From: Chytridium lagenaria
Taxonomy: Eukaryota > Chytridiomycota > Chytridiomycetes > Chytridiales > Chytridiaceae
Direction of reading: 5' to 3'
NCBI GenBank assembly: GCA_025449115.1
Contig: JAHLKC010000020.1
Location: forward strand, 310,001-374,000
Length of the DNA stretch: 64,000 nt
Made by a program: the position numbers and the translations under genes. The notes under the pieces were generated by a model, which made no database searches, was not told the DNA's origin, and worked only from the letters and a program-made list of their open reading frames with translations. This document shows, in pieces, positions 2,149-37,223 of this stretch (the stretch's first letter is position 1; each line of letters opens with the position of its first letter).

Positions 2149-4192
2149 ATGGTGCCTCTGGCCTCCATCCCAAAAGAGGTCCTCGAACATGTCCTCCAAC
2201 TCCTCCGTCATCCCGATTACACTCACTTTGCACTCACATGTCGAATAGTGTACGTGGTTGCTACGCGTAATGATGGCTTGTTGTGGTCTCAGCTCGTAAA
2301 TCGAAAGTTTAAAGACAACTGGAATCCGTTAGGTGTGGCTACTGCTGGTGGAAGCCTTAAAGCCGTTCATTTCATTTTGCAAGAGCATCACCGTCTCTTT
2401 AAGGATTTATATCTCGCGGTTCCTGTTGTCCTCAAAAACTCAATCCAGTAGAGCTTGCTGCTGCCAAGGGCCATCGGTTAATATGTCTTGCGCTCATGAA
2501 TGCAGGATGCAATCCCGGCAACGCCATCAACGTCGCATGCAAGCATAACCAGACCAAACTATTCAGAATGCTTCTATCATGCGGTTTGAATCCACATAGT
2601 GAAGCAGACTGGTGGCGTGAAATGATGGTCCATCCAGGATCCGTCGAATGGAAACATGATCCAATGAACCCTGGTGATGGAGGCATGACTTCGCTGCATT
2701 GGGCAGCATGGAATGGGAATGTGGAGATCTGTGAGATGCTGCTGAATTGTGGGTATCACCTGGAGGACTGCTGTAGAGACTTTGAGGGAAGAATGCCGCT
2801 TGGACTAGCCGCACTCGCAGGTCGACCTGATGTTTGCCGTTTTTTTTATTCATCATGGCGCCAACGTCAATGCTGAGCTTGGAGACCCCGAAGGTGGGCT
2901 TATGAACCTTTTTACGTACGGCAAACCGCCATTGTTTTATGCAATTCAAGGAGGGTCACTCGAGACGTGTGAGGACGCTACTCTCTCTTGGTGCAGATTT
3001 CAAACTTCAAGCACCGTTATGAGTCTATCTTGTTCTTTGCTGCTTCAAATCAAGGAACTCCGCAAACTCTCGAGTGGGCTCTGTCTCGCTGCGAAGGTAA
3101 CCTCGAGCGCAGAACAACAAACATGGACAAACGGCGTCAATGATTGCAGCTCAAGGTCAACGAATAGACGTGTGTCGCAGGCTTCTCCAAACCGGCAAAA
3201 TATCAATCAACTTGAAAAGCTTAGCAGGATGCACTTATTTGCATCATGCTTCTGCAAATAATAATGCTGAAATCGTCAGGTTCCTTTTAGAGGCCGGGGC
3301 GGACCCGGAAATCCAAACACCTATTGGACTGACCTCCATCGCGTTGGCTATCACGCAGGGTGCAAACGACGCCACCGAAGTTCTCGCAAGAACCGCTAAT
3401 ATGGACTCAAAAAACACTGAAGCGGAGCTTACACCCCTCGGTATCGCGATCTCTAGAAGAAAAAGCGCGGTCATTCCACTTCTCCTTGAACACGGCGCAT
3501 CTTTGACGAATATAGATGTCCATGGTTATACCGCCGTCTTCAGAGCTATTAAGGAGCAAAGCTGGGCTGAACTTGAGCTTCTTGTAAAGCTACGGCCGGA
3601 AGCTTTGGAACTCCGAGATGTGGGTGGTCGAACCCCACTCATGGCCGCTGCCGGGTTATGTTCGGCTCAGGGCTGTTTACGGTTGATCGCGTTGGGGGCC
3701 GATGTGAATGTACAAGTGGGTAAATACATGTGTACACCGTTAATGAAGGCTATAAATAATGGATGTACAGAACTGGTCGAACTCTTCTTGGATCATGGTG
3801 CTAAAATTGACCAAGAACACAATCATTATTCTCCGCTTTACCGTGCCGCGAGTTGGGGTTTGGTTGATGTATGCAAGGTGCTTCTTGAAAATGGATGCCA
3901 GGTCGACGAGCTTGAGGAGGGGAGCACGGCTCTTCATGTTGCTATTACAAATCACCAGTTTGGGACTACATCTTTGCTTGCGCAGGAGATGGTCAAGGCG
4001 GGGATCTCGCTTGATATTCCTGATAAAGATGGGAACAGTGCACTTCATATGGCGGCGGATAATGGGAATATTGGAATTTTGCAGTGCCTTGTTGAATTAG
4101 GGGCGTCGTATGAGGTTAAGAATAACGACGGGAAGACGCCAATAGCTCTGGCAATGGATAAGGAGCATCGAGGTGGTTGGATTTTTGGATAG
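2149..4192 (+). CDS. F-box/ankyrin-repeat protein B
   Basis: Chosen start ATG 2149 gives MVPLASIPKEVLEHVLQLLR, an N-terminal F-box, then HPDYTHFALTCRIVY. At least twelve ankyrin repeats follow. The clearest run is about 3260-4190, with units such as NNNAEIVRFLLEAGADPE, GCTELVELFLDHGAKIDQ and DNGNIGILQCLVELGASYE. It appears to be one exon of about 680 codons. Family knowledge: F-box plus ankyrin proteins recruit targets to SCF ubiquitin ligases. Frame changes occur at about 2445, 2850 (an eight-T run), 2972 (an extra G in GAGGACG) and 3130, and each can be removed by one base. The flanking repeats are well conserved, so the gene is probably intact in the organism. Confidence 0.8.
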
Positions 4193-4432: not shown

Positions 4433-6603
4433 CTATTCCAGCTTCATTATTTCATGGAAGAATAGAATATTACGTAAATATTGTTCTACCTCGGAATGTC
4501 CACCGCTAGCCGCATTTTCGGCCGCATCCCGGGTAAACCCTTCTGCGCGATTCTCATACAGGAACCGAACCACCTCCATACGCCCGTATTTAGCCGCCAT
4601 GTCTATCGCGTCGGTAGTGCAACCTTCATGGCGGTTCTCGTGCAAGAACCTCACTATCTCTAGATGCCCATTTCCAGCAGCCTTATCCATCGCCTTGAAG
4701 GTGCAACCCTCATGACGGTTCTCGTGCAAGAACCTCACTACCTCTAGATGCCCATTTCCAGCAGCTCTATCCATCGCTTCTGAGGTGCAACCCTCGGATC
4801 GATTCTCATGCAGAAATCCCACCACTTTAATGTGACCCCTCTCCGCCGCTACATCCATGGCGCGCGTCGAACATCCTTCCGTCCGATTTTCGTGCAGATA
4901 TTGAACGACTTCAGATGTCCAGCTGAAGCCGCCCAATCCATTGCATAATTCGAACATCCCTCGGTTCGATTCTCATGCAGAAATCGAACAATGCTTAAAT
5001 GCCCATTCTTAGCAGCGAAATCCATCGCGTCATCCGTACACCCGGCGGTCTGATTTTCATGCAGGAATTGAACAACGTCAAATGACCGTGTTTAGCCGCT
5101 TTATCCATGGCGTAGTTTGAACAACCTTCTCTGCGGTTCTCGTGCAAGAACCTCACCACCTCTAAATACCCGTTTCTAGATGCTTTGTTCATGGCATGTA
5201 TTGTGCATCCCTCACTTCGGTTTTCATGCAGAAACCGAACAACCTCTAAATGTCCACCCTCCGCTGCTCCGTCCATGGCTACCTCAGTGCAAACCCCATG
5301 ACCATTCTCATGAAGATACTTGAGCACATCTAGATACCCAGCCTCAGCTACCCCAATCCATCGTATTTGTCATGCAGGGCTTTGTTGAATTCTCTACTAA
5401 AAACCTCAACACCTCCAAGTGGTCGTTCCTCGCCGCCCATTTTATTGCTTGTTCGCTACATTCTTCCTGAAGATGCTCGTGCAAATACTTTACAACCTCC
5501 AACTCCCCGTTCCAAGCAGCTCCAACAATCGCCTCTTTAGAACAACCTTCATGTCGATTCTCGTGTAAAAACTGAATAACCTGCAAATGCCCTCCCCTGG
5601 CAGCTTCATCCATGCCTCCTCTGAGCAGCCCTCACTTCGATTCTCGTGCAAGAATCTAACAACTTCAATAAACCCTCCCCCAGCTGCTCCATCCATCGCC
5701 CTCATTGTGCAGCCCTCCTTTCGATTCTCATGCAAAAATCGAACCACCTCCAAATGGCCAAACGCGCGGCGCCGTTCATGGCGGCTACCGTACATCCCTC
5801 AGATCGTTTCTCGTGCAAGAATTGAATCACGTCTAAATGTCCGTTCTTGGCCGCTTCGTCCATGGCCTTGGTGGTGCAACCCCCTGTTCGATTCTTGCAT
5901 TCATGCAGGTATTGAACCACCTCCAAATGGCCTCCTGCAGCCGCCAAATCCATGCTATTCTTTGAGCACTTTACAGCTCGTTTGTCATGCAAAAACCGCA
6001 CCCACTTCCAGATGCCCGTGTGCTGCTGCCCCATCCACGGAGGCAACACTGAATCCATCCTTGTGGAATCCATAAAGGAATTGAACGATATCGATATGAC
6101 CAAACCTGATGGCGGCGTCCATCACTTTAGCCGAAACTAGTGATGGATGGGTGCGGTGAAACATCTGGATGACTTTAATCGGCCATGCCTTGCCATCACG
6201 TCCAAAGGGAGTGCCCACTTTTGAGGATGATATTGGTGCATCCAGGCGATGACTGCGAGACTTGCTTCGGAAAAGAAGCCAAATAGGAGCAAAGATTAAA
6301 GTCGAAAGTGTTGAGACTGATCTCTTGAGAGGCGGGGAAGTAGTGGCTGGCGGGATGGAGTTGGTCAAAGGCCGTTGTAGGATCAGGATGGAGTGATGTC
6401 AAGCCGAGCCAAATGCATTCAAGCTTGATGGCGACAAACAGGTCGTCCGCATTTTGAAGTATCTTTTGACGGATCTCTGGAGGGAAGACGGCTAGTGGAT
6501 GTTGCGTTCGGTGCATAATGTGTCGTCCATTTTTCTTTTCTTTCACAAATCCCGTTTCTTTGGCAAGTACGTCTTCCTCGTACATAGTGCGCGACCGCAA
6601 CAT
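4433..6603 (-). CDS. 28-residue ankyrin-like repeat protein with F-box-like N-terminus
   Basis: The N-terminal segment (6603-6200) contains FPPEIRQKILQNADDLFVAI, an F-box-like helix pair similar to the start of the genes at 23056 and 25374. The rest is about 18 head-to-tail units of the form FLHENRxEGCTxxAMDxAA followed by GHLEVVR. The unit is 28 residues rather than the usual 33 of ankyrin. The C-terminus is a short tail at 4433. Frame changes at about 4960, 5330, 5620, 5760, 6010 and 6200 split it, while repeat phase is kept across them, so one gene is likely. It converges with the gene ending at 4192. The role is unknown; repeat solenoids of this kind bind proteins. The start codon is uncertain (an upstream in-frame extension exists to about 6619). 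Confidence 0.75.
4440..6010 (-). repeat. 84-bp tandem coding repeat array
   Basis: The coding units recur with an 84-base period. For example, the same GTTCTCGTGCAAGAACCTCA string begins at 4634 and 4718. Roughly 18 diverged copies encode the HENR...EGC...AMD...GHLEVV module. The array lies inside the minus-strand gene. Confidence 0.85.
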
Positions 6604-7686
6604 TCCGTTTGCTACGCATTATAACACGTTGTAACTTTCTTCATTTTTATTCATGATTTTGGTAGATTCCATGCTGGATCAGCTGAATTACATTTCCAAG
6701 AAGTTTGGACGTGATGGCCGCTTTAGTGTGAGAGAGACGACTGTGAAAGAACCCAAAAGTCTGCTCGAACAAGAGCGAAAGATCCGCTTTTTCATCCCTT
6801 CATCTTCATTAATATCGTCGAGCCCGTCGCCGCCTTCAAGGAAAATATCCCGTGATAAGTGATACTTTTTAATGATCAATTATACTGCCAACAAATTAGT
6901 TATAAACTGATTAGAAAACGGCATTGGATTTTTCTACACAACTTCGTGAATACGGAGCCGTCTTTGACATTCGACGCCGTTAAGAGCCGGGATTGATTCT
7001 GACGAAGCTCGAGCTACGTCTTTCAGCTTGGGTATTCTTGTCGATAGCCTCTTACTAAAAATTGCACTTAATACCAAGCTATAACCTGCATTTCTCGAGT
7101 GTACATATGCGCGTCATCAGAGACTTACTTTTCTTCCACTTGCTCAGGTAATTCGCATATCACGTATTTTAAACCTATACTGCAAGCTAGCTAAGAGCAG
7201 CTAGCGCTAATTGATGCGCCAGACTTAATTTTAAATACCAAACTTTCCTCTGCAGAACACTCCATAAACAATATGGTGTAGCTCAATTCTCCAGTGCTCG
7301 ATCGATGTCCACTGAATCTTCCAGTATCCCAATCTACTCTGCAGTGCGCGACGCGCGTACCAAACCAAAAGCGTCTCATGCCATCATGACGGTGCCGTCA
7401 CTCGATGATACATTCAGTCACACTAGAAATAGACACAAAAGAGGGTTGGCAAGGGGCAAGGGCTGCCGAACTCCGAAAAAGACGTTTTTTAATCAGAGCC
7501 GATCCGGCCACAAGCATAAGCACCACTCTCCCTTTTGACGTTTGTAATGATGCACTCTGTTTACAAATAACCACAACACCGCACTCTGGCTTCTTGGAGT
7601 ATAAAAAGTACGGCCTTCATCACCACTGCCGGCGCTCGTCTTGTCTGAAGCTGCAGATCATCGATCATTACGGTTAGCGCTGTTGT
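6604..7686. other. intergenic, no gene recognised
   Basis: About 1.1 kb between divergent genes. Opposed open frames around 6653-6879 and 7191-7540 show no domain, no repeat and no splice structure. The segment should contain the promoters of the minus-strand repeat gene and of the oxidoreductase at 7687. Confidence 0.4.
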
Positions 7687-9747: not shown

Positions 9748-11882
9748 TCAACTCCTCCCAAGAACCCAGAACGTGTTCATAGTCCCCTTCCCCTTAATGT
9801 TCATTGTTTCCGGTTCACTCAACACAAAGTTCTTGTCCTTGATCAACTTGTACGTGCTTTCAGAGATGTGAATTTTCCCAGGCTTTGACGTAGATTCCAT
9901 GCGGGAAGCCGTGTTGACGGTATCGCCGACAATGCACCAGTGAGGATTGGAATCACCGAGAATACCTGCAGTGATCTTTCCAGAGTTGAGACCGACTCGG
10001 GTTTGAATCTTTTCGCCCGAGACGGTGCGGAAGTCTTCGGCCATTTTAAGGATATCTAAATGTCGTCGGGATTAGGGAAACAATTTAAATGCGTATAAGA
10101 ACACGGTTCTAGAGCTTACCGAGAGCAAAATTCGTCATCCTCTCTGCATGATCACGAACTTTTTCGGGTGCACCGCAAACTCCCAAGAAGGCATCACCAA
10201 TGGTTTCGACCTTGTAGATACCCCATCGCTTTGCGATAACGTCATACTCTTGCCATAATTTGTTCAATGTCGCGAGCATATCCTTGGTCTGTTTGTGAAA
10301 TTACTTTAGTCTTTCCTATGGACTAGATGGAAAAGCTTACGTTGGATTTACTAGTAATGCCCCGAAATTGGTGACATCTGAGAAAAAGACAGTGACAGAC
10401 TCGAATTCTTCGGCACCGGTAGACTTTCCGCTCTTGAGTTGATCGATCAATCTGTAAAGCAGCAATATGTTAAAATCAGGAACTGAAAGGATACGTATAG
10501 ATCAAAGGAAAGCATCTAACCCAGGTGGAACGAGTTTCTCCAAAAGTTTATCGGCTTCAGCCCATTGCTTCTCGATTTGACTGTTCAGTGCTTCAATCTG
10601 GCTTGCCTTTTGGTTCTGGCTCTCCTCGAGAGTTGCGTTGACCAAGATGAGGGTGAGGAATACCTTTGCGAAAATGTCGGAAATGCAGAACATGATTTCG
10701 CCGACTTCATACGTAACGATCTTGCTGTGAATATTTGTACGCGATATTAGTGACGAGTCATTGAAACGAATAAGGCAAAAGCATTTAGAAGGGAGTGAAA
10801 CTATTTACCTTCGCTGAACATACCACGTGATTGGTAAAACGCATTCCATGCGAAAAACGTCACAAACCGAGCGTACCTCAACGACGTCGGGTTAAGGCGA
10901 CACCCTGTTTCGCCCCTAATAGCTGAATTGAACATCTCCATGATATTGTAGAGACAGCTGACAAAGAAACACTTGATAGGGTCGCCAATATCTCGCTGTA
11001 GGGTTGCTTGACCATCGTTGCGAGGAATCCGAGAATGAGGAGACTGTAGTCGGAGGTAGCCGGTATTGTCGGCCATAACTTCGTTTTTGGTGATCTCCGA
11101 GATGAGGTAAATGCTAAGTTCATCGAAAAGCAAGCGGAACGTAAGAATTCATGGCAAGGTGCGTAAAAGTAAAATTGCTTGGAGATGAAGAAGTCTGAGA
11201 TACTAACAGAACGGGACACGTTGCCAACCACTCCATATACCGACTCGGATCCACAGGATGTCCCATGTAATCCATGTAAGTAGGCGTGATCCTCAAAATC
11301 TGAATAATATACGACGACATTGCAATAATGTTTACTGCGCACAACACCTGCGCCAAACTCTTCTTATACCCCGTCTGCGAGTAGATATACGCAATGTAAG
11401 AGTACACCACCGCAACTCCAAACGCCGCTGCCGTGTACATGTACCATTCGTCGTCACGCCCCGATTAAACTTTTTCACACGATGGCCATTCGCCACGACG
11501 ACCATGCCACAGAGCGTGAAAAAGAGCCAGACGGTAAAGTTTCGCCAAACGTAAAAGTTGGCCCCGGCACTTGCTTTTTCTTTTTTGAGAAGGCGGAGAC
11601 GTTCTTGAACGCTCATTTCTGTGAGAGGGTTAGACGATCACGCAAGGCGTGCAAGTAGACTCACTTCCGTCCAAGGCTACAGAGTCGCTATCATCTATGA
11701 ATGTTGAGTTAGTTCATGTGGGACTTAGGTCTGTATCGTGGTCTGAGCGCCTCACCTGATCGGGAAATCTGGTTGTGAAGTGCGGCGCCATGTCCGCAGG
11801 AGAGACATCTCTTGTTCCCCGGTTGAGGCTCAAACTCCTTGCACTCGCAGGAGCGGCATGTTGTAATCTTCACTGTCTCCAT
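9748..11882 (-). CDS. rhodopsin-guanylyl cyclase fusion (ordinary counterion type)
   Basis: Light-activated cGMP-forming enzyme of the plasma membrane. Order: N-terminal zinc-ribbon-like motif (11865-11790), short linker exons (11694-11665, then from 11618), hydrophobic rhodopsin helices (about 11560-10650), coiled-coil linker, class III cyclase (about 10450-9750). Retinal-binding Lys codon 10664-10666 lies in SDIFAKVF, with Asp four residues before. Helix 3 has RYMEWLATCPVL, with Glu (11231-11233) at the bacteriorhodopsin Asp85 position and Thr at Thr89. The cyclase has VFFSDV (metal Asp), YKVETIGDAF (Glu for guanine), PHWCIVGDTVNTASRMES (Cys for guanine, and the catalytic Asn/Arg pair), all diagnostic of GTP use. 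Single-base frame breaks lie near 11458, 11080, 10980, 10840 and 10365. Removing them restores alignment with the divergent neighbour. ATG 11882 was chosen because it follows a splice/TATA-like stretch; the frame stays open to 12269. Confidence 0.93.
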
Positions 11883-12267
11883 GTATGCAGGCAAAAGATC
11901 ACAGGCTTTGTTGAGAAAAACGAAAGGAGCTGCGAAGTATAAAGGCTGGGGTCTTTGAAAAGGGTCTCCTACTCTTTCTGGATCTAGACTCATTCTCGCC
12001 CTATGACGCACCGTGCGCACCATTGTCGGAAATCGAGAACATAGGGGTCCAGGGTAATTGTTCCAGGGACTGCCATTGTTTGCCGGCGAAGCTGATTGTT
12101 GATCATGAATGGAGTTGTGATCGGCGAGTAAGAACTTCCGGAGATGAGTCAACAATGGAACATGCAGAACCGTAGGCGGGATACTGTTTTTAAAAGTTCG
12201 GAGAAAGTTGTTTTCATCGTTTTCTCTTCGGCTCTCATCATCTGCAAACGTCGAGGCTATTTCCGTC
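11883..12267. promoter_or_regulatory. shared divergent promoter of the two rhodopsin cyclases
   Basis: If the minus gene starts at 11882 and the plus gene at 12268, these 385 bases are the only region available for both promoters, suggesting co-expression. A TATA-like TTTATAC reads on the minus strand about 50 bases ahead of ATG 11882. The segment is also an open minus-strand frame of about 129 codons with no recognisable domain, so part of it could instead be coding. No symmetric operator-like element was identified. Confidence 0.5.
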
Positions 12268-14180
12268 ATGTCGTCAAATAAAGGTAAGCGGTCAGACGGC
12301 GTCTCCTTTGTGACGACGACATCCTCATGCTCCTTACAGCAAGATTCGTCCGCGAAAAGGCCAGCAAGGTTGAAGAAGATGCTTACGACCTCAAACCAAT
12401 GTCGTTCCTCTACGTCAATTTCAGCATCTGGGCGACGCTCACCACCCTCAACATCTACACCCGTCTTTTTGGCAATTTGCGAACCAACAAGTTCAACCGA
12501 TCCTATGCCGATGACTGGTACAAGGCAACCGCGTTCACGTTTGCCATTGCCTGCGTGTTTGCATTCTTGGGGTACATGGGGACGAACAATCGGGGGAAGA
12601 AGAATGTGATCTTTGGAATGTTTATGGTGATGTTTGTCGCGGGTTCGACGTGGTTTTTGCAGTCTTTAAGGGGAACGGTGACGCTGGTCGACCACGCAGG
12701 AAATCCGCTTGATGTTTCGCGGTACATTGAGTGGCTTCATTCGATGCCCGCACTGTAAGCTTTCTTTTTGTTCTATCCTCTTACTTACTGGTTTCTTACC
12801 TCCCCCTGCATGAAAACAGTTCCTACATTATCGGAAGAATGACCCGCGCCGACCCCAAAGAGACATTCGGCGCAATTCATACCTCCTACGGTCTCACCAT
12901 TACTGGCTTCCTCAGCGCTTTAGCAAAACACCCGTACCATGAACTGTTTGGAACAGTCTCCATGATCTATTTCATGTTTACGTGTGGAAACTTTGAAAGA
13001 ATGTACCAGCCTGCCATTGATGGAGAGACTGGATCGACGGTGGACCCGAACGTGTTGAAGGCGTTGAAGTGGATCACGCTGGGAGCTTGGTGGGAGATTA
13101 CGATTGCTTGGTACATTCAAAAAAGGTGAGCGTTTGTTTTTCCTTCGCACTCGGGTAAACTTTTTTTCGGTGGTTTTTGTTAACGCTGCTCTATATAGTC
13201 ACTTTGTTTCTTGGGCAACAGGCGAGGCCTTGATCTGTCTCGGCGAAATGACCGCCAAAATCGTGTTCATGCTCATCATTGTCAACAACACCATGGATCA
13301 AGCGCAATCTGAAAAGGTTTCGATTGCAGAGAGTATTGCGAATGAATTGGAAAAAGAAATGAACGATTCCGATAGACTTCTCTCAAAGATGATTCCTCAG
13401 AGGTATTGATTCCTACAAAAGAAGTTAGGTTAAAGGCTTTTTGTAGCGTGTTGGAACAGCTTAAGAGTGGAAAGGCGAGTGGAACAGAGGAGTATAGCTC
13501 TGTTACGGTCTTCTTTTCGGACATCGCCAACTTTACCGTTATCTCCAGTAGGACTTCGGTGAGATTTTTACTCAATAATGATGAGCCAACGGTTTTCCTT
13601 TGTATGATTAGACTCAAGATATGCTTGCGACTCTTAACAAGATGTGGGTGGAATACGATGCCATCGCGAAACGATACGGCATGTACAAGGTCGAAACCAT
13701 TGGAGACGCCTACCTCGGCATTGTTGGCGCACCTGACCGAGTCCCCGACCACGCTGAACGTGCCGCCAATTTCTCTCTCGGTAAGCCCATTGCCCATCGT
13801 TCAAACTAACATATAAAAGACATTATGTCCATGATCAAAGACTTTAAGACTGTCACTGGTGAATCCATTCCAAATTCGAGCTGGACTTGCCTCTGGACCT
13901 GTGACGGGTGGAATCATCCGGAGACGCGAATCCCCATTGGTGTATTGTGGGTGATACTGTCAACATTGCTTCCAAGATGGGGCGTCGTCTAAGCCTGGGA
14001 TGATTCATATCAATGAGGTGGCATATGACCTTCTTGCGCCTGGGAAGAAGTTTAAGTTTTCTGACGGCGATCCTTTCACGGTCAAGGTGAAATTTACCTG
14101 TTGCTTCTTTTTTGGTTTGCTAATACTCTGTGGTGTAGGGGAAGAGCATCAAAACTTATTTCGTTCTCGCGGAAGACTAA
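12268..14180 (+). CDS. rhodopsin-guanylyl cyclase fusion, NeoR-like
   Basis: Eight exons by splice signals: 12268-12283, 12340-12754, 12820-13125, 13199-13402, 13447-13558, 13612-13780, 13820-14086 and 14139-14180. Rhodopsin helices are followed by a coiled-coil linker (about 13270-13400) and a class III cyclase. Helix 3 reads RYIEWLHSMPAL, with Glu (12729-12731) at the Asp85 position and Ser four residues on. Helix 7 reads CLGEMTAKIVF, with retinal Lys at 13257-13259 and Glu (13245-13247) where most rhodopsins have Asp. That Glu is a hallmark of near-infrared NeoR. The cyclase has FFSDIANFT, KVETIGDAYLG and HWCIVGDTVN, so GTP is the expected substrate. The conserved Arg after that motif is Lys (13974-13976, NIASKMG). 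Frame breaks near 13869, 13917 and 13979 each need one base. Family knowledge: NeoR works only with an ordinary rhodopsin-cyclase partner; here that partner is the adjacent divergent gene. Confidence 0.92.
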
Positions 14181-29281: not shown

Positions 29282-31261
29282 TTACACCATCCCCAACTTT
29301 TCCGCAACAATCACCATATTCCTCGGCGAATCCACCAGCCCAAACAACGGAAACACCTGCACCGAAAGCGGTATACCCTTCCCGCCAATTTTCTCCACCA
29401 TCTTCCCATCAACCACATCGTCACCTCCCGCAGCTTCCACGAAAAACAAAAGGCGGTCTAAATAATCAGACTTTCAATAGCAGACCCCATCATCGCCTCA
29501 AAGTCCATACAACCGCAAGTTCCTTTTCGCGGTCATTAACGAATTTTCATATTCTTTTAAAAGCGGCGGAGTAGCCCTATCGCTTCAACGTTCACGCCTA
29601 ATCGTGTTAATGCTACATGGACGTACCCCGAAAACCCATTTGCAAAAGCATTCGGCTTCAACCTCCCAATGACCAATCCTCCATCCACATCCCCATCTTC
29701 AATTCCCTTTTTCGCGTTACTACATTCCTGCACAGATCCTAACACGCCTCTATCACATATCACATACTGTAATAACGCGCGATAATGATGTCTCCGATAC
29801 GCGTCTCTTGCGCCTTCCTGTGTTGTCCAACGACTTGTGGCTTGACACGCTAAGGTGCGAGCTGTGAAGCCCAGATGGAAGAGATCGGAATGGAAGTATT
29901 GGGACATGGGGTAGCCAGGGGTTTTACAGGCGGTAGTTTGGCGATCGTGTGTATCTTTAGTGGATTCCCAGGTTGGTGCGGTGGAGGGGATGGCTTCAGT
30001 GAGTTTGTTATAGCAGCAGCTGACACATGCAAGTATTTGAGCGTCGCTAGTGAGGAAGTGGTGTATAGTGGCTGAGGCTTCACAAATAAATCAGTCGCTC
30101 GTTTTTAACACAAAAGGAAGGGTAAAGATAGGGATAATCTTACTCAAATCGCCGCATGCGTGTAATCCACACAAAAGCCATCGTTGACACATTTCACTGT
30201 CATCGGCAGGAGTCGCCACCGCCTCCTCATTTTTCTCCATCCGCACACCAGCCTTGACTTCTTTCAATAAATCCTTGAACGATTCCCGTGCTTCCACTCT
30301 GCGGTTAATATGGAACAACATTCCTCTTTTTCTGATCCCTGGGTTTCCCATCAACTTCTCTAGAGGCCCCTTCTTTGTCTCAGGTGATGTTTCCTTCTTT
30401 GGTTTGCTGGTGTACGCCTTAGTCAATTTCTCTGTGGGCGTTTCGCACCGCATGTTTGGATTGTATCGTCGTCTACACCTATCACGAGGCGGTTGTATTG
30501 GAAGGTGAGAACAGAGTCGAGATATCCTTGTCCCGCGCCTAAATCCAGAATGCCTAGTTTCGGACTTGAGTTCGAGGATGTGGATGACGGGACGGTAGTA
30601 GAGGATGAGGCTGATGAGGTGGTGACAGAGGATGACGATTCGGCTTTTGAGGCGAGGTGGTCAATGAGGCAAGCCATGATTTCGACTTCGTGTTGCTTCT
30701 TAGGGACATGCCTTGAACTTGATGCTTATCAAGACGAAGAGCTGAGAGGGTGTAAGGATCATTAGAAAGCTTCACGAATATGTACCTTTTTGTTCTAATG
30801 CTGCTACGAGCGGGTCTTGTTGCGGGTCACGGGGAAGAGGCAAGTCCTTTGACGCTCTCACAAACTCTATCAAGCTTTCAGGCCAGTCCTCCTGTCATCA
30901 AGTATCAACATTCATCTAAAAGCTTCGTCACAACCTTTGGTTCACCCCCGGATCCTAGCTCCAGAAGTTCCATGAACGAAAGCTCCTTCAGGATCCGCCA
31001 TTCCTCAGGAAACACTGTTTCCCAGTAATTCCTTGTAAAAAAGTCGACGGCATGATGCTGCCAGAGATACCCATATCGGTGGATAAATCCAGCCAGCGCC
31101 GATGCGTAGGCTCGGCATGATGTGAAGCTTTCGGGAAGACGGATGCGGAACTCTGATGATGCTGATGGTGGGGTCATCTCATTTGGGGACTTAATTTTTT
31201 TCAGCTTTTTCATTATGCGACATGCAGACGGGCTCAATGGGAGACGTAAAACCACGGGCAT
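29282..31261 (-). CDS. METTL25-family (RRNAD1-like) putative SAM methyltransferase
   Basis: N-terminus from ATG 31261 with the family block FFTRNYWETVFPEEWRIL (about 31020-30980), then LPRDPQQDPLVAAL, an intron near 30780, and the signature MSPKKQHEVEIMACLIDHLA. In that signature one C is missing from the CCCC run at about 30708. The SAM-binding motif is KLGILDLGAGQGYLDSVL (about 30555-30500). Next comes LLCGLHACGDLS (30170-30140), then YFHSDLFHLGFTARTLACQA, and the C-terminus SAIESLIILDRLLFFVEAAG ... PLFGLVDSPRNMVIVAEKLG to the stop at 29282. There are several one-base breaks, mostly in homopolymers (about 30708, 29560, 29460). Family members are predicted methyltransferases of unsettled substrate. 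It lies 190 bases downstream of the kinase gene on the same strand. Confidence 0.88.
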
Positions 31262-31451
31262 TCTATTAATGGCTTTAACGCTTTCTATAAAAGTCAAAGC
31301 GGGAAGAAAGTATCGTGATGATGGGGTATAAAAACTATAGAAAAATACAGGAGCCGACAAAAGCATTCCAAAGTCTAAATCAAAACATGGAGAGGAGCCC
31401 GAGCAATGGAGCCAGCCATACACAAAAAACCGCGTTCATGACTCTTTTCCG

Positions 31452-33989
31452 TCATAACTTTAGATTCTTGATGAGGTTTCTACACACTTCTTGGTAATTC
31501 CACGTTGATCCCTTTTTCCTTCTCAACTCCAACCCATACATATGCGTTCCCTTGACTTGACATATCTCAATCTGAAACTCCACGTTCTGCCCAACGCAAA
31601 GCACTTTATACCCGGTCCACGTTCCCTTGATACCAATTTGCGCAAACGCACATCCATCTCTTGTACGATAGCGTCTGGTGATTTACTGCTGGTCGTGTCT
31701 GCTGGGTACATGGATTTAGAGACGCGGGGTTTTGGGGCAGTGGATCCGGTTGAAGAGGCTGACGTGGCGCTGTCTTGGCGTTTGTGTGAGGATGTGGGAC
31801 GGAGTTTGTTGAACGCGGATGAGAGGGCTGAACCAAGGTTGATGCTGATGCGGCGTTTGGGTTTAGAGTCTGCAGGTGCGGGTGCGGAGGTATGAGCGTC
31901 TTGGTGGGGTTGATGGGATGAGGATATGGCGCTATGGGGGGTGATGGCGGATGGAGATGGACGTTGGAAAGAGCTTCTGTTGGATGGAGCGATGCTGGCT
32001 GGCCCAGAGATATTTGGTATGGGAGTGACGACATCTTCGTCTTGAGATGTAAGACTAGCCCTCCTTGAAGATTCAGTTGAGACCCCAGTTCTATGAGACC
32101 CATCAATCGTCAATGTTGAATTCTTCTTCCCCCCGTTAAAATTATGCTCCGTCATCGCCTTCGAAGCTTACTTTGTCCTGCGGATCCGGGAGTGAACTGC
32201 GTTTGCACCGCAGAAATGGAACGTCGCCTTTGAATAGCTGTTGAAGGAACCACCATCAAATCCTCGCTGTTACCAACGCCAGGAGCTACAACTTGAACAC
32301 TGCCGTTCACAGAGAATCTACTGTTGTGACTCTTCTGATCAGATCCAAGGTACATGCTCTTTGCTTCCTTTGGTGCAATATGATTATCTAAAGTCGATGT
32401 AGCTCTTCCTTTCAGTTGCGACGGCCTTGCATCATCCACATCTTCATCCGTCGACGGCATGGCAAGCGTCGAACGAGCTGGAACAAGGTTTTGACGTATT
32501 GCTCCTGATATCGATTTCCTCCTCTTGATGGTATGACGTTTTGCCGCGTCCAAATCTCCTGAGCTGTCCGTTCTTGGCGGCACCAGTCCAGGGCCAATCG
32601 CACCAGAATTGTGACGGTTCAAATATTGACTCCTTTGTCTTGCGAGCGTGACGCTTTCTTCTTGTTCTTTTAAAAGCCAGTACAGTGAGAATGCGGGGCC
32701 ACGCTCTGGGTTTGCGAGGATGGCGGCTTTCGCGGATGTGGAGTCATAACCGTAGAGTCTCATTGTATCTAGAATCTTGTCTTCAAAGGGTTCCTCTAGT
32801 TTGCAGCGCCATGGGATTAAAGACTCTGGGGGCCCGTCAAAGCCTCTGTTGACCCATCCGTGTGTACGGATGTAGTCCAGCGTTGCTCTTTGATTTGGGT
32901 CTACTGAGAGCATTTTCCGGATTAAAATTGATGCGTCTGCGACATTTTACCTAGTTAGATACAAATCTCGTGTAATGTATGAAAATATCTTAAAGACAAA
33001 TAACACAAAAAAGAAAACGTCAAAAGATGGGGAGTTATAACCCACCTTCAGGAACGTAGCTTGGAATATCAAAAGTGGATGTCGTGATTTTTCGATATAA
33101 ATCCTTTGTATTAACATCTCGAAACGGGAGTTGTCCCGTCAGCAGCGCGTACAGTATGACACCCATGCTCCACACATCCACCTCTGGCCCAACGTACTGC
33201 CTTCCCAAAATCATTTCTACCCTCAAAGTTAAAAACTGCTCGACGCGCACATAAGAAAAATCGAGATGCCTACCTGGTGATGCGTAAAAAGGCGACCCAC
33301 AGAACGTTTTTAGGGTATCTTCCGGATCGAAAAGGTTCACAAAGCCGAAATCAATAATCTTAATATTACGCTTATTGTCCATCAACAAGTTTTCCGGTTT
33401 CAGATCTTGATTATGAAATTAGCTTTTTTCTCGCAATTTGCATATAGGTTCTAACCTCGATGGATCACAGAGCTTTGATGACAGTAGTCCACAGCGCTAA
33501 CAATTTGGCGAAAAATCCTCCTAGCCGTTTTATCATTTAACCGATTCTGAGCAACGATATAGTCAAACAGCTCTCCACCCTCCACATACTCCATCGCCAA
33601 AATAATATCTTGTCCGTTTCCTTTGATGCGTGTGAGCCAAAAAAAGAAAAACAATAAAAGACACTCCCGCACTCACCGCTACATCATAAAGCTTTACGAT
33701 ATTTGGATGATTTAACAACCTCATAATCCGTACCTCCCGCTTGATCCTCGTGATATGTTCGGGCTTTTTGATGGTCGACTTATGGATCACTTTCAACGCA
33801 ACCTACGTAAAGTACAAATGAGTCAAGGTCGTCTCCCCTGCAAGCTCTTACTCTACGGTTTGTCTCATTGTCGATCGCGAGTTTAACTTTTCCATAGCTG
33901 CCTTCCCCTAACTGTCGTTCGATGATATAACGATCGAGAAAGAGGCCCTGCTCTTCCTCCTCCTGCGGAATCTCCTGCACGCTAGCCAT
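31452..33989 (-). CDS. Kin1/PAR-1 (MARK)-type serine/threonine kinase
   Basis: Polarity and cortex-associated kinase family. ATG 33989; the glycine loop LGEGSYGKVKLA is at about 33915. After an intron comes VALKVIHKS with the catalytic Lys, then MEYVEGGELFDYIV, IHRDLKPENLLMD (split by an intron near 33440), IIDFGFVNLF, TFCGSPFYASPE (split by an intron), VDVWSMGVILYALLTGQLPF, and the end of the kinase lobe RATLDYIRTHGWVN (about 32870). A UBA-like helix segment follows (LDTMRLYGYDSTSAKAAIL). The middle is long, Ser-rich and probably disordered. The C-terminus restores a KA1 membrane-binding domain: VEFQIEICQVKGTHMYGLEL ... QEVCRNLIKNLKL, stop 31452. This needs one frame change near 31600. About seven short introns. 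SNF1 is less likely because of the KA1 tail. Confidence 0.9.
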
Positions 33990-34830
33990 GTCCGCGAGCG
34001 CAGATTAAAGGGTGATGGATTCAACCAGAATATTCCAAGTAAGTCAGCGTTGGCTCCGGCTAACGAAATAAGTCCAAGAGCGTTGAAGATAGTAATATTG
34101 GTGATGCACACAATCGGTGCACGACTTCGATTCGGCACTTTGATTGGGGTTATGGTTTATTGTGTTTTTTGTTAAAGCTAGCAAGTCGATCGTCCCTTCT
34201 CCTTCTTGTGATTGGCATAATCACTTTGTCGTTTTACCGCTCCATTTGAGTTTCCATCTGAATGCACCCCAATTGTCTCAACGGTGGAAAAAACGTTTTT
34301 TTAAGCACTTCCTCTCCGAAGCGCTTATACCGATCCAACAACCGTCTACCTATGAAGAGCTTTTGCTTTAACTCCATTAACCGAGGATTTATAAACCTTG
34401 ACCAAAGCGCTACCAGGTCAGAGGCTTCATCGTAACGTCCATTCGCGTGCAGAGATTGTGTCAGAGGCTGACTCAGAAAGTTTATCATTATCGCCCATTT
34501 AAGTTAACTTTTTTTACGTGCACTCTCAGGTTATGAGAGTTTCCGAGCGACGTGTGCTTAAATCCCTTGGAAATGCCCATATATAAAATGCTTGCCTATT
34601 ATCTATCTATTATTTTCTGTGTGCTCTATGGGCTTAATAAATAGGGGGTTTTACAATAAAGTGAGGAACCAGCTCGCTTTCGCCTTCATGCCTCTCCAAT
34701 CGCGAAAAACCCCTCAACAAAAAATATATAAGAAATTCATTAAATAAAATAGAGTGGGGGTTTGTATAAATGGGTTTAGGGGGGAGTGGTGACCTCAACA
34801 AATGAGGAAATAAATTAAAGAGGTGGGTAG
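33990..34830. other. intergenic, one doubtful small frame
   Basis: Promoter side of the kinase and 3' flank of the cyclin. A minus-strand frame at 34488-34234 (84 codons, containing MELKQKLFIGRRLLDRYKRF) looks protein-like but has no known relative, and no supporting signals were seen. Confidence 0.3.
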
Positions 34831-37223
34831 TTAAAGACCGGTAGAGAGAGGATACTGCGTTACATTATACGGCGTGAACCTGAACCCATTTGACGGATTC
34901 GGCGGCACAGGAGCGTTTTGGTGGAACGTGTTCCCCATGGATGCATGCGGGACGGAATACATAGACGCGCCAAGAATATACCGATGGTTGGGATGCGCCG
35001 TCATGGATTGACGAGAAGAGTTGGGTTGAACCATAGGTTGAGTATAGTTCTGATATGGGGGCATTTTCCCCAACAAATCATCATCCAGCATTGCCATCAC
35101 GTCTGATGCGATAACGTCACTTGAGGAACGCGGCATGGAAGGATACATGGGTGGTTTTGGGTGGAATCCTCCGGATGGTATTGAAGAAATTGGGCGTTGA
35201 AGAGATCCTGCTCACTCATTTGACCCTTGGATGACGTTCTTGGAGGAAGTTGTGGATATTGATCATGAGATTTGTACATATACTGCTGTGACGCAGGTTG
35301 CTGATGCGGAAGATGATGACCATAGTTCATCGCCAACCCACCAGTAGCGTAGGGAAGCCCAGAGGGTGTGTTAAATTGCATGGGCGCGGAAAGCGGTGGA
35401 GCGAATCCATTGTTTTGCTGGAAACTTTGCGTTCTCGCCCAATCCATCCCTCCATCACTCATGTAATTTGGTGAAAACCCTGTCGGATCTGCAAACTGGT
35501 TGCTTTGGGGAAAGAGGTCGTGGAATCCGGGATCACTAAATTGACTCAAAGGAGTCGACCCGTGAATATGAACGTCGTGTGAACTTTCTTGCGCCTGCGC
35601 TTTAGGTTCTACACTAAATCCGTTCAACTGGTCCAGCAACGCAACATCAAATGAATGGCGGCGACTGAGGGTTTGTTGAAACGGATTATAAGAATTTGGA
35701 GTGGGTGAAGGTTCCGAGAAGGCTGCCGACGCGGCCATAGGGTAGTACTGATATGGTTGTGGTCGAATGTACCCTGCATCTTGAACGTACACAGGTCCAA
35801 CGTGTTGAAGAGATGGGAGATGTTGCATTTGTTCCAGTTGCTGGAATTCGTTTAGGTGAGGGAGGAGGATGTTTGGAGAGAATTTGCGGGCTTTTTGATG
35901 TTCAAAAAGAGAGGGAAGTTTGTTTTCTTGGAGCCTTTTGTAGCTGTGTTCCACTTCAGAGACCCAGTTGACAAACTCTTGACGTTTTAAGATCATTTTA
36001 TGGCCTAACAGTGAGAGGTAGTCGACCTAAGATAAAATATTGTAAGGAAACATTGCTTGTAGAGCTGTTTTGTTTACCTCTGCTCTGTTGATTGTGCCAA
36101 TGTCGGTTCTGGATAGATCACTCCAGGTGCGATTTGTAAATGTGCTAAAAGGAGAGAGAAAATTAGGATTCTGTTCTTGACATACTGTAAAGTTGAGGTA
36201 CATAATAAGGTAAAAGTTGAAGGAGTGTGAGCATGTATCATACTTACTGATCATCAAGGACTTTGTTGGCAAGAAGAATGCCGATAGTAAAATCAAGCTT
36301 TTCGGAACTATTCGGATCGGTCACTCTTATCATACAAACTTTATATATGAAATGGAGTGCAAGAACCGCGATGCTTCTTGACTATAATATTAATTAGCAA
36401 TCGGTCACCAGCGCATATAACAACGGAAGAGAAAAGATCAAACTCACCACATCAGTCGTAGTCAACACCGTCTCGATATACTCGACAAAGTCTTTCTCGT
36501 GAGCACAACACACAGTCCTATTCGAAGATGCCGGAATATTGCCCTTCCTACCATCTTTCTCACTATGACTATGCCAGCCCCTACATAATGCCACGAATTT
36601 CGCGATAAACCGTGCAAGGTATTTGAGGTTTTTGGGGAGTCCCGGAGCTTCTCCCAACTCTGCGGTTTTTCGGTAAGACTCTCTTTCGGCCGCTTCTGCG
36701 GCGGATGAAGCTTGAGTGGGGAAGGATTGGAGGGAAGAAGTTCTACGAGGAAGTTTTGAGAGAGTTTGATGAAAGGATTCAACGGATGGCGGGTCGGAGA
36801 TGAGGGATGCGATGGGAAAGGAACGTTGGTTGTGGTAATCCAGGCTGGTCCGTGATGATGTAGTGTTTTCGTTGTGGTAAACGGGCGGGTATTAAGGTCA
36901 AATGATGGTGTGAGAGTGAATTCCGGTGATAGTGGGGTGATGGGTTGGTATTGTGAGATGGGATTATTGTGGTTGTTGTTGTTGTAGTGGGTGTTTTTCG
37001 TTGCCGAGCCAAAGTTGGAGGAGGGTGATGGACCGTAAGAAGATGGCGAGGAGATGAAGGGTACGTCAAACGGTGTAAAGTCGATGCTGAGAAGCGGAGT
37101 CTGCAAAGATGCTCTGTGCCCTGCAATCTCTGCCCCGACATGACCATAGTAACCCTGATCCATTGCCTTTGTTTTTGAATTTCTTGAAGACCTGCTATGA
37201 CCTCGTTGCGCTATTTCCGCCAT
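34831..37223 (-). CDS. Pho80-type fungal cyclin with long low-complexity tails
   Basis: Regulatory subunit for a Pho85/CDK5-like kinase. ATG 37223 (MAEIAQRGHSR) was chosen; the frame continues upstream to 37478. The N-terminal 180 residues are Ser/Pro/Asn-rich. The cyclin box begins LPKNLKYLARFIAKFVALCR (after a frame change near 36660) and runs through FVEYIETVLTTTDVV, ALHFIYKVCMIRVTDPNSSE, LDFTIGILLANKVLDD, TNRTWSDLSRTDIGTINRAE and VDYLSLLGHKMILKRQEFVN, ending near 35930. Introns lie near 36440, 36370, 36250, 36150 and 36050. The C-terminal 370 residues are Gln/Pro/Ser-rich (QPYQYYPM, HQQPASQQYMY), with a frame change near 35130, stop 34831. The cyclin box matches the PF08613-type pattern of Pcl cyclins. 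Confidence 0.85.

Follow-up and report, generated by a model that had tools for sequence, protein, structure and literature searches.

The divergent rhodopsin-cyclase locus

The DNA analyzed here is a 64,000-nucleotide stretch of the Chytridium lagenaria genome (the window; part of contig JAHLKC010000020.1, C20), and the genome searches described below covered 356 contigs (41.9 Mb). Positions 9748–14180 of the window carry two divergently transcribed genes, A (minus strand, 11882–9748) and B (plus strand, 12268–14180), each of which encodes a fusion of a microbial rhodopsin with a class III guanylyl cyclase, and 385 bases separate the start of A (11882) from the start of B (12268). Each gene has eight exons and GT-AG introns, those of A having been read from exon 3 to the stop on a second copy of the locus on contig C246. 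As detailed below, the locus very probably encodes both halves of a light-activated, heterodimeric guanylyl cyclase of the NeoR/RGC (rhodopsin-guanylyl cyclase) kind, in which B would be the NeoR-type subunit and A the RGC. The features of the locus are as follows.

11756–11882, minus strand: gene A exon 1; METVK start; C-x2-C-x-C...C-x2-C-x-H, putative zinc-binding knuckle
11665–11694, minus strand: gene A exon 2
11208–11618, minus strand: gene A exon 3; rhodopsin domain begins; helix C, E182 (bacteriorhodopsin D85), T186 (bacteriorhodopsin T89); frame broken in the window, open on C246
10809–11113, minus strand: gene A exon 4; rhodopsin helices; frame broken in the window, open on C246
10521–10724, minus strand: gene A exon 5, 204 bases; helix G, D307, retinal Lys K311; linker
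10341–10451, minus strand: gene A exon 6; cyclase domain begins; metal D384; frame broken in the window, open on C246
10120–10288, minus strand: gene A exon 7, 169 bases; E424, D428
9748–10055, minus strand: gene A exon 8; C493, NxxxR (N500, R504), stop
11883–12267, no strand: shared intergenic region, 385 bases; candidate bidirectional promoter; minus-strand frame open in the phase of gene A
12268–12283, plus strand: gene B (NeoR-type) exon 1
12340–12754, plus strand: gene B exon 2; helices A–C; E136, S140
12820–13125, plus strand: gene B exon 3; S191, M192, W234, I237, T238
13199–13402, plus strand: gene B exon 4, 204 bases; helix G E262, retinal Lys K266; linker
13447–13558, plus strand: gene B exon 5, 112 bases; metal D339
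13612–13780, plus strand: gene B exon 6, 169 bases; E379, D383
13820–14086, plus strand: gene B exon 7; base-recognition Cys; NxxxK (catalytic Arg replaced by Lys); three frame breaks in the window
14139–14180, plus strand: gene B exon 8; C terminus, stop

Bacteriorhodopsin-like and guanylate cyclase domains were found above the Pfam cut-off in both spliced proteins, where the protein of A joined window exons 1–2 to C246 exons 3–8 and that of B comprised the 424 amino acids up to the first frame break. In the window itself, rhodopsin and cyclase matches above the cut-off were obtained for gene A exon by exon. Exon lengths of 204, 112, and 169 bases are common to A (C246 copy), B, and a further gene on contig C258. 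An earlier note on this DNA, made from the letters alone, had described two complete divergent fusions with starts at most 385 bases apart, both with the retinal Lys, the metal Asp, and the Glu and Cys for GTP. The starts and the Pfam matches bear out the two fusions and their spacing, and the residues are present in both proteins: the retinal Lys is K311 in A and K266 in B, the metal Asp residues are D384/D428 in A and D339/D383 in B, and the Glu/Cys pair is E424/C493 in A and E379 with the Cys of the piece PHWCIVGD in B. The word "complete" does not hold for the window, in which both reading frames are broken.

Residues and relationships of the two predicted subunits

The assignment of B was made by comparison with NeoR (RGC3) of Rhizoclosmatium globosum (RgNeoR; PMC7655827, PMC8815786), which is likewise a rhodopsin-cyclase fusion, on the opposite strand to its partner and without the catalytic Arg. 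When 17 RgNeoR positions from the literature were compared by residue number, B agreed at 11 (E136, S191, M192, W234, I237, T238, E262, K266, D339, E379, and D383). Both counterion positions in B are Glu (E136 and E262), with K266 as the retinal Lys, and the Ile at position 237, as in NeoR, stands out because Phe or Tyr is said to occupy this position in other microbial rhodopsins (PMC8815786). Further, the cyclase domain of B lacks an intact NxxxR motif and reads N...K instead (piece NIASKM), with no difference there on C246; RgNeoR, also without NxxxR, has T455 and K459 (PMC12264004). A PDB search with B listed 46 sequences, none of them named NeoR, and those closest to the rhodopsin part were phosphodiesterase-rhodopsins.

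Gene A carries the conventional counterion set of Glu, Thr, and Asp (E182/T186/D307) together with a full catalytic set (D384/D428, E424/C493, and an intact NxxxR, N500/R504), and thus has the same metal, base, and NxxxR residues as RGC1 and RGC2 of R. globosum (PMC12264004). At the four residues compared, the numbering of A equals that of R. globosum RGC1 (RgRGC1) plus 5 (D379, E419, D423, and C488 correspond to D384, E424, D428, and C493). The Cys-rich N-terminal knuckle, for which no Pfam family exceeded the cut-off in A, is common to A and to a rhodopsin-cyclase gene on contig C82. Judged by these residues, A is an ordinary (conventional) RGC.

The cyclase domain of A is close to those of the homodimeric BeRGC and CaRGC (PDB 6ao9, 6sir, and 5oyh; PMC12264004 describes CaRGC as homodimeric), with an E value of 2.2e-84 against 6ao9, whereas B and the C258 protein fall outside their group in cyclase-domain trees. 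In a six-row tree of A, B, C258, C82, BeRGC, and CaRGC, the split of B and C258 from the other four received support of 100/100, and in a seven-row tree that also held adenylyl cyclase 5, a long outgroup row dropped for the six-row tree, the support was 87/99. The earlier note had named a placement of both proteins in one ordinary rhodopsin-cyclase clade outside NeoR as the outcome that would speak against it; we found instead that B has NeoR numbering, Ile237, Glu262, and no catalytic Arg and that B and C258 stand apart in the tree.

Several observations weigh against reading the locus as a NeoR/RGC pair. The NeoR assignment of B rests on published RgNeoR residue numbers, and B differs from RgNeoR at 6 of the 17 positions (134, 140, 141, 142, 143, and 195). 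One of these differences is Ser140, where RgNeoR has Asp140, so that the third carboxylate of the RgNeoR triad is absent from B. B also retains the Asn of NxxxR, which RgNeoR has lost; A and C82 were not resolved as one RGC group in either cyclase tree; and the window frame breaks at five places in A and at three in B.

With regard to Ser140, RgNeoR mutants are informative: D140T absorbs at 630 nm and D140C at 676 nm, and D140N keeps wild-type spectral properties (PMC8815786); the passages of that paper on D140 mutants gave no absorption value for D140S. Because the D140N, D140C, and D140T mutants are still red-shifted, residue 140 is taken to tune color rather than to define lineage, and we file B as a putative NeoR-lineage subunit with a variant counterion set and not as a triad NeoR. 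We expect B to have a bistable, red-shifted chromophore that may absorb below 690 nm; near-infrared absorption is not to be assumed because B lacks Asp140.

Frame breaks, the second copy, and rival explanations

Contig C246 (30.6 kb) aligns with window positions 6280–37631 in three collinear blocks of 92.3, 96.9, and 96.8% identity that cover nearly the whole contig, and it lacks about 570 window bases (6690–7264). Because C246 is collinear along its length, a second haplotype is preferred, although not proved, and the same collinearity over 30.6 kb in three blocks disfavors a tandem or segmental duplication. This second copy bears directly on whether A and B might be pseudogenes, that is, decayed rhodopsin-cyclases retained side by side. 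The five frame breaks in A and the three in B are what such decay would leave, and the C246 copy adds gap differences of its own, one in A exon 1 and seven in the B exons, one of the latter being three bases long. However, these gaps sit elsewhere than the frame breaks of the window, and on C246 the frame of gene A is uninterrupted between exon 3 and the stop, so that read errors fit the breaks better than pseudogenes do. When the two copies were compared in nine 500-base bins over window positions 30500–35000, 5 substitutions were found against 65 insertion-deletion (indel) events, an excess that points to indel read errors and calls for a check of every frameshift in this assembly. Differences at the codon level between the copies also argue against decay: 11 were synonymous and 1 nonsynonymous in A exons 3–8 (497 codons compared and 5 skipped for gaps; exon 3 holds one amino acid difference), and 10 were synonymous and 1 nonsynonymous in B exons 1–6 (400 compared and 7 skipped), the single nonsynonymous difference in B adjoining a gap and possibly being an alignment artifact. 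Given what the second copy, the indels, and the codon comparison show, we reject the pseudogene explanation and consider it highly improbable; the most likely reading is that A and B are intact genes with poor base calls, whose frame breaks would be sequencing errors on two haplotypes.

If both genes are intact, they could still encode two independent homodimeric rhodopsin-cyclases that were merely duplicated head to head and whose pairing is not obligate. Such an arrangement would accord with the retention of the metal Asp residues and the base-recognizing Glu/Cys in both A and B, with the Asn of NxxxR kept in B, and with the finding that the C258 and C82 genes are each the sole such gene found on their own contig, even though that of C258 is only 27 kb long. 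Against it stand the replacement of the catalytic Arg of B by Lys, since loss of this Arg is likewise a mark of RgNeoR and of mammalian one-site heterodimers (PMC12264004), and the NeoR fingerprint that B carries in its retinal pocket and numbering. We therefore regard independent homodimers as improbable, if slightly less so than pseudogenes, and favor the heterodimer. The proposal of the earlier note that two halves of a NeoR-like receptor are here physically paired is supported by the NeoR residues of B together with the conventional counterions and full catalytic set of A.

In the R. globosum heterodimer, only one of the two sites is reported to be active, with RGC1 giving the base-recognizing residues and NeoR the metal Asp (PMC12264004), and the residues needed for this one-site scheme are retained in A and B. 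By analogy, A would be a conventional visible-light RGC whose photocycle switches on the enzyme and would supply the base-recognizing Glu/Cys and the Asn/Arg of a single catalytic site, to which B would contribute the two metal-binding Asp residues. The second site, that of B itself, would be non-catalytic (Arg replaced by Lys), and the bistable red-shifted chromophore of B would tune or modulate the output. The 385-base gap may be a shared promoter holding the subunits near equal dose, and chytrid zoospores may use such a NeoR/RGC-type cyclase for light orientation. The heterodimer, its photochemistry, and the expression of A and B are all things that we infer by analogy with the R. globosum proteins.

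The 385-base gap is identical on C246, where it lies inside a 598-base stretch without differences; because longer identical stretches (797 and 704 bases) occur elsewhere on the same contig, no conservation is claimed for the candidate promoter region. No 10-base words are shared by the gap and the 600 bases upstream of the C258 gene, and the two short stretches shared with the 600 bases upstream of the C82 gene were not judged meaningful. The phase of A stays open for 239 codons upstream of METVK, across the whole gap (window 11883–12600, minus strand), with p = 0.0014 for 128 open codons in 20,000 shuffles, examined after the fact. An upstream ATG at 12269 in this phase overlaps the start codon of gene B. 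A longer gene A starting at 12269 is left as an alternative; the METVK start is preferred because the RgRGC1 numbering fits it.

Known systems and other rhodopsin-cyclase genes in the genome

The head-to-head arrangement itself is not new. It has been published for R. globosum (PMC8815786, Broser 2022) and is described as common among the heterodimeric RGC genes of various chytrids (PMC12264004, EMBO J 2025), and a shared promoter has been proposed for such loci (PMC12264004, PMC8815786). In R. globosum, one NeoR gene is clustered with two RGC genes (PMC8815786), RGC1 and RGC2 standing in tandem at the NeoR locus, whereas a single RGC was found at the locus described here and the second lies on C82. 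Several distinct rhodopsin-cyclases are also known from both Chytridium (Chytriomyces) confervae and R. globosum (PMC9616733), and the NeoR of C. confervae, which we liken to B by description as another chytrid NeoR from a heterodimeric RGC set, absorbs at 677 nm (PMC8815786). What is added here is Ser140 instead of Asp140 in B; a second, unpaired NeoR-type gene on C258, also with Ser140; and a second ordinary RGC on C82. No title among the papers returned by literature searches concerned a naturally occurring Ser140 NeoR or a genome with two NeoR genes, although neither point was searched by name and the Broser 2023 survey was not covered.

A Pfam rhodopsin search of the genome identified C20, C246, and C82, and protein searches with the rhodopsin domains of B and A gave matches only on C20, C246, C82, and C258 (E up to 0.01; 16 and 18 matches). 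The C258 protein shares with B 69% identity across the rhodopsin domain (183/266) and 78% across the cyclase domain (141/181), and exons 2 to 6 of its gene have the same lengths as in B. At places aligned with B, it has E136, S140, E262, Ile237, and Ala238, and it has D...K instead of NxxxR. One frame break lies near the end of the gene. The ratio of nonsynonymous to synonymous substitution rates (dN/dS) between C258 and B is 0.15 over the 417 codons before the first break in B, a rough value because dS is 1.13. The C82 gene is an ordinary RGC, and its single copy has several frame breaks; its identity with A is 40% over the rhodopsin domain (103/260) and 74% over the cyclase domain (135/182).

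On these assignments, the genome holds two NeoR-type genes (B and C258) and two RGC-type genes (A and C82), and A and B are the only two seen as a pair; because the C258 contig is only 27 kb long, a partner of this gene may lie beyond its end. The A/B pair would add another natural case to the rhodopsins that, in 2020, were described as the first known to act as heterodimers. With two NeoR-type subunits lacking Asp140, this genome could serve to test how strongly near-infrared absorption depends on the third carboxylate and whether NeoR and RGC subunits combine freely. It is conceivable, although we lean somewhat against it, that this two-by-two set gives up to four light-gated cyclases, with NeoR halves at differing, less extreme red wavelengths than RgNeoR and only one pair locked by a shared promoter.

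The C82 RGC, which starts at C82:10993, has some 1.1 kb upstream a gene in the same direction (C82:12150–14440, minus strand) with two cyclic-nucleotide-binding domain matches above the Pfam cut-off, the first of which has the EPAC2 entry 1o7f as its best PDB match (E 6.6e-38). This gene possibly encodes a cyclic-nucleotide effector beside a light-gated source.

Elsewhere in the genome, carotenoid oxygenase matches (PF03055) were found on C85 and C82, squalene/phytoene synthase matches (PF00494) on C28, C50, C80, and C232, and 34 cyclic-nucleotide-binding domain matches were listed; none of the matches in these three groups resolved to an ortholog of a known retinal-synthesis or channel gene. 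Clusters of several guanylate cyclase domain matches, possibly tandem cyclase genes, occur at C19:6766–14100 and C19:104257–112079, and no rhodopsin match was found on C19. In the window, an uninterrupted ankyrin-repeat frame of 350 amino acids lies at 3140–4192 on the plus strand.

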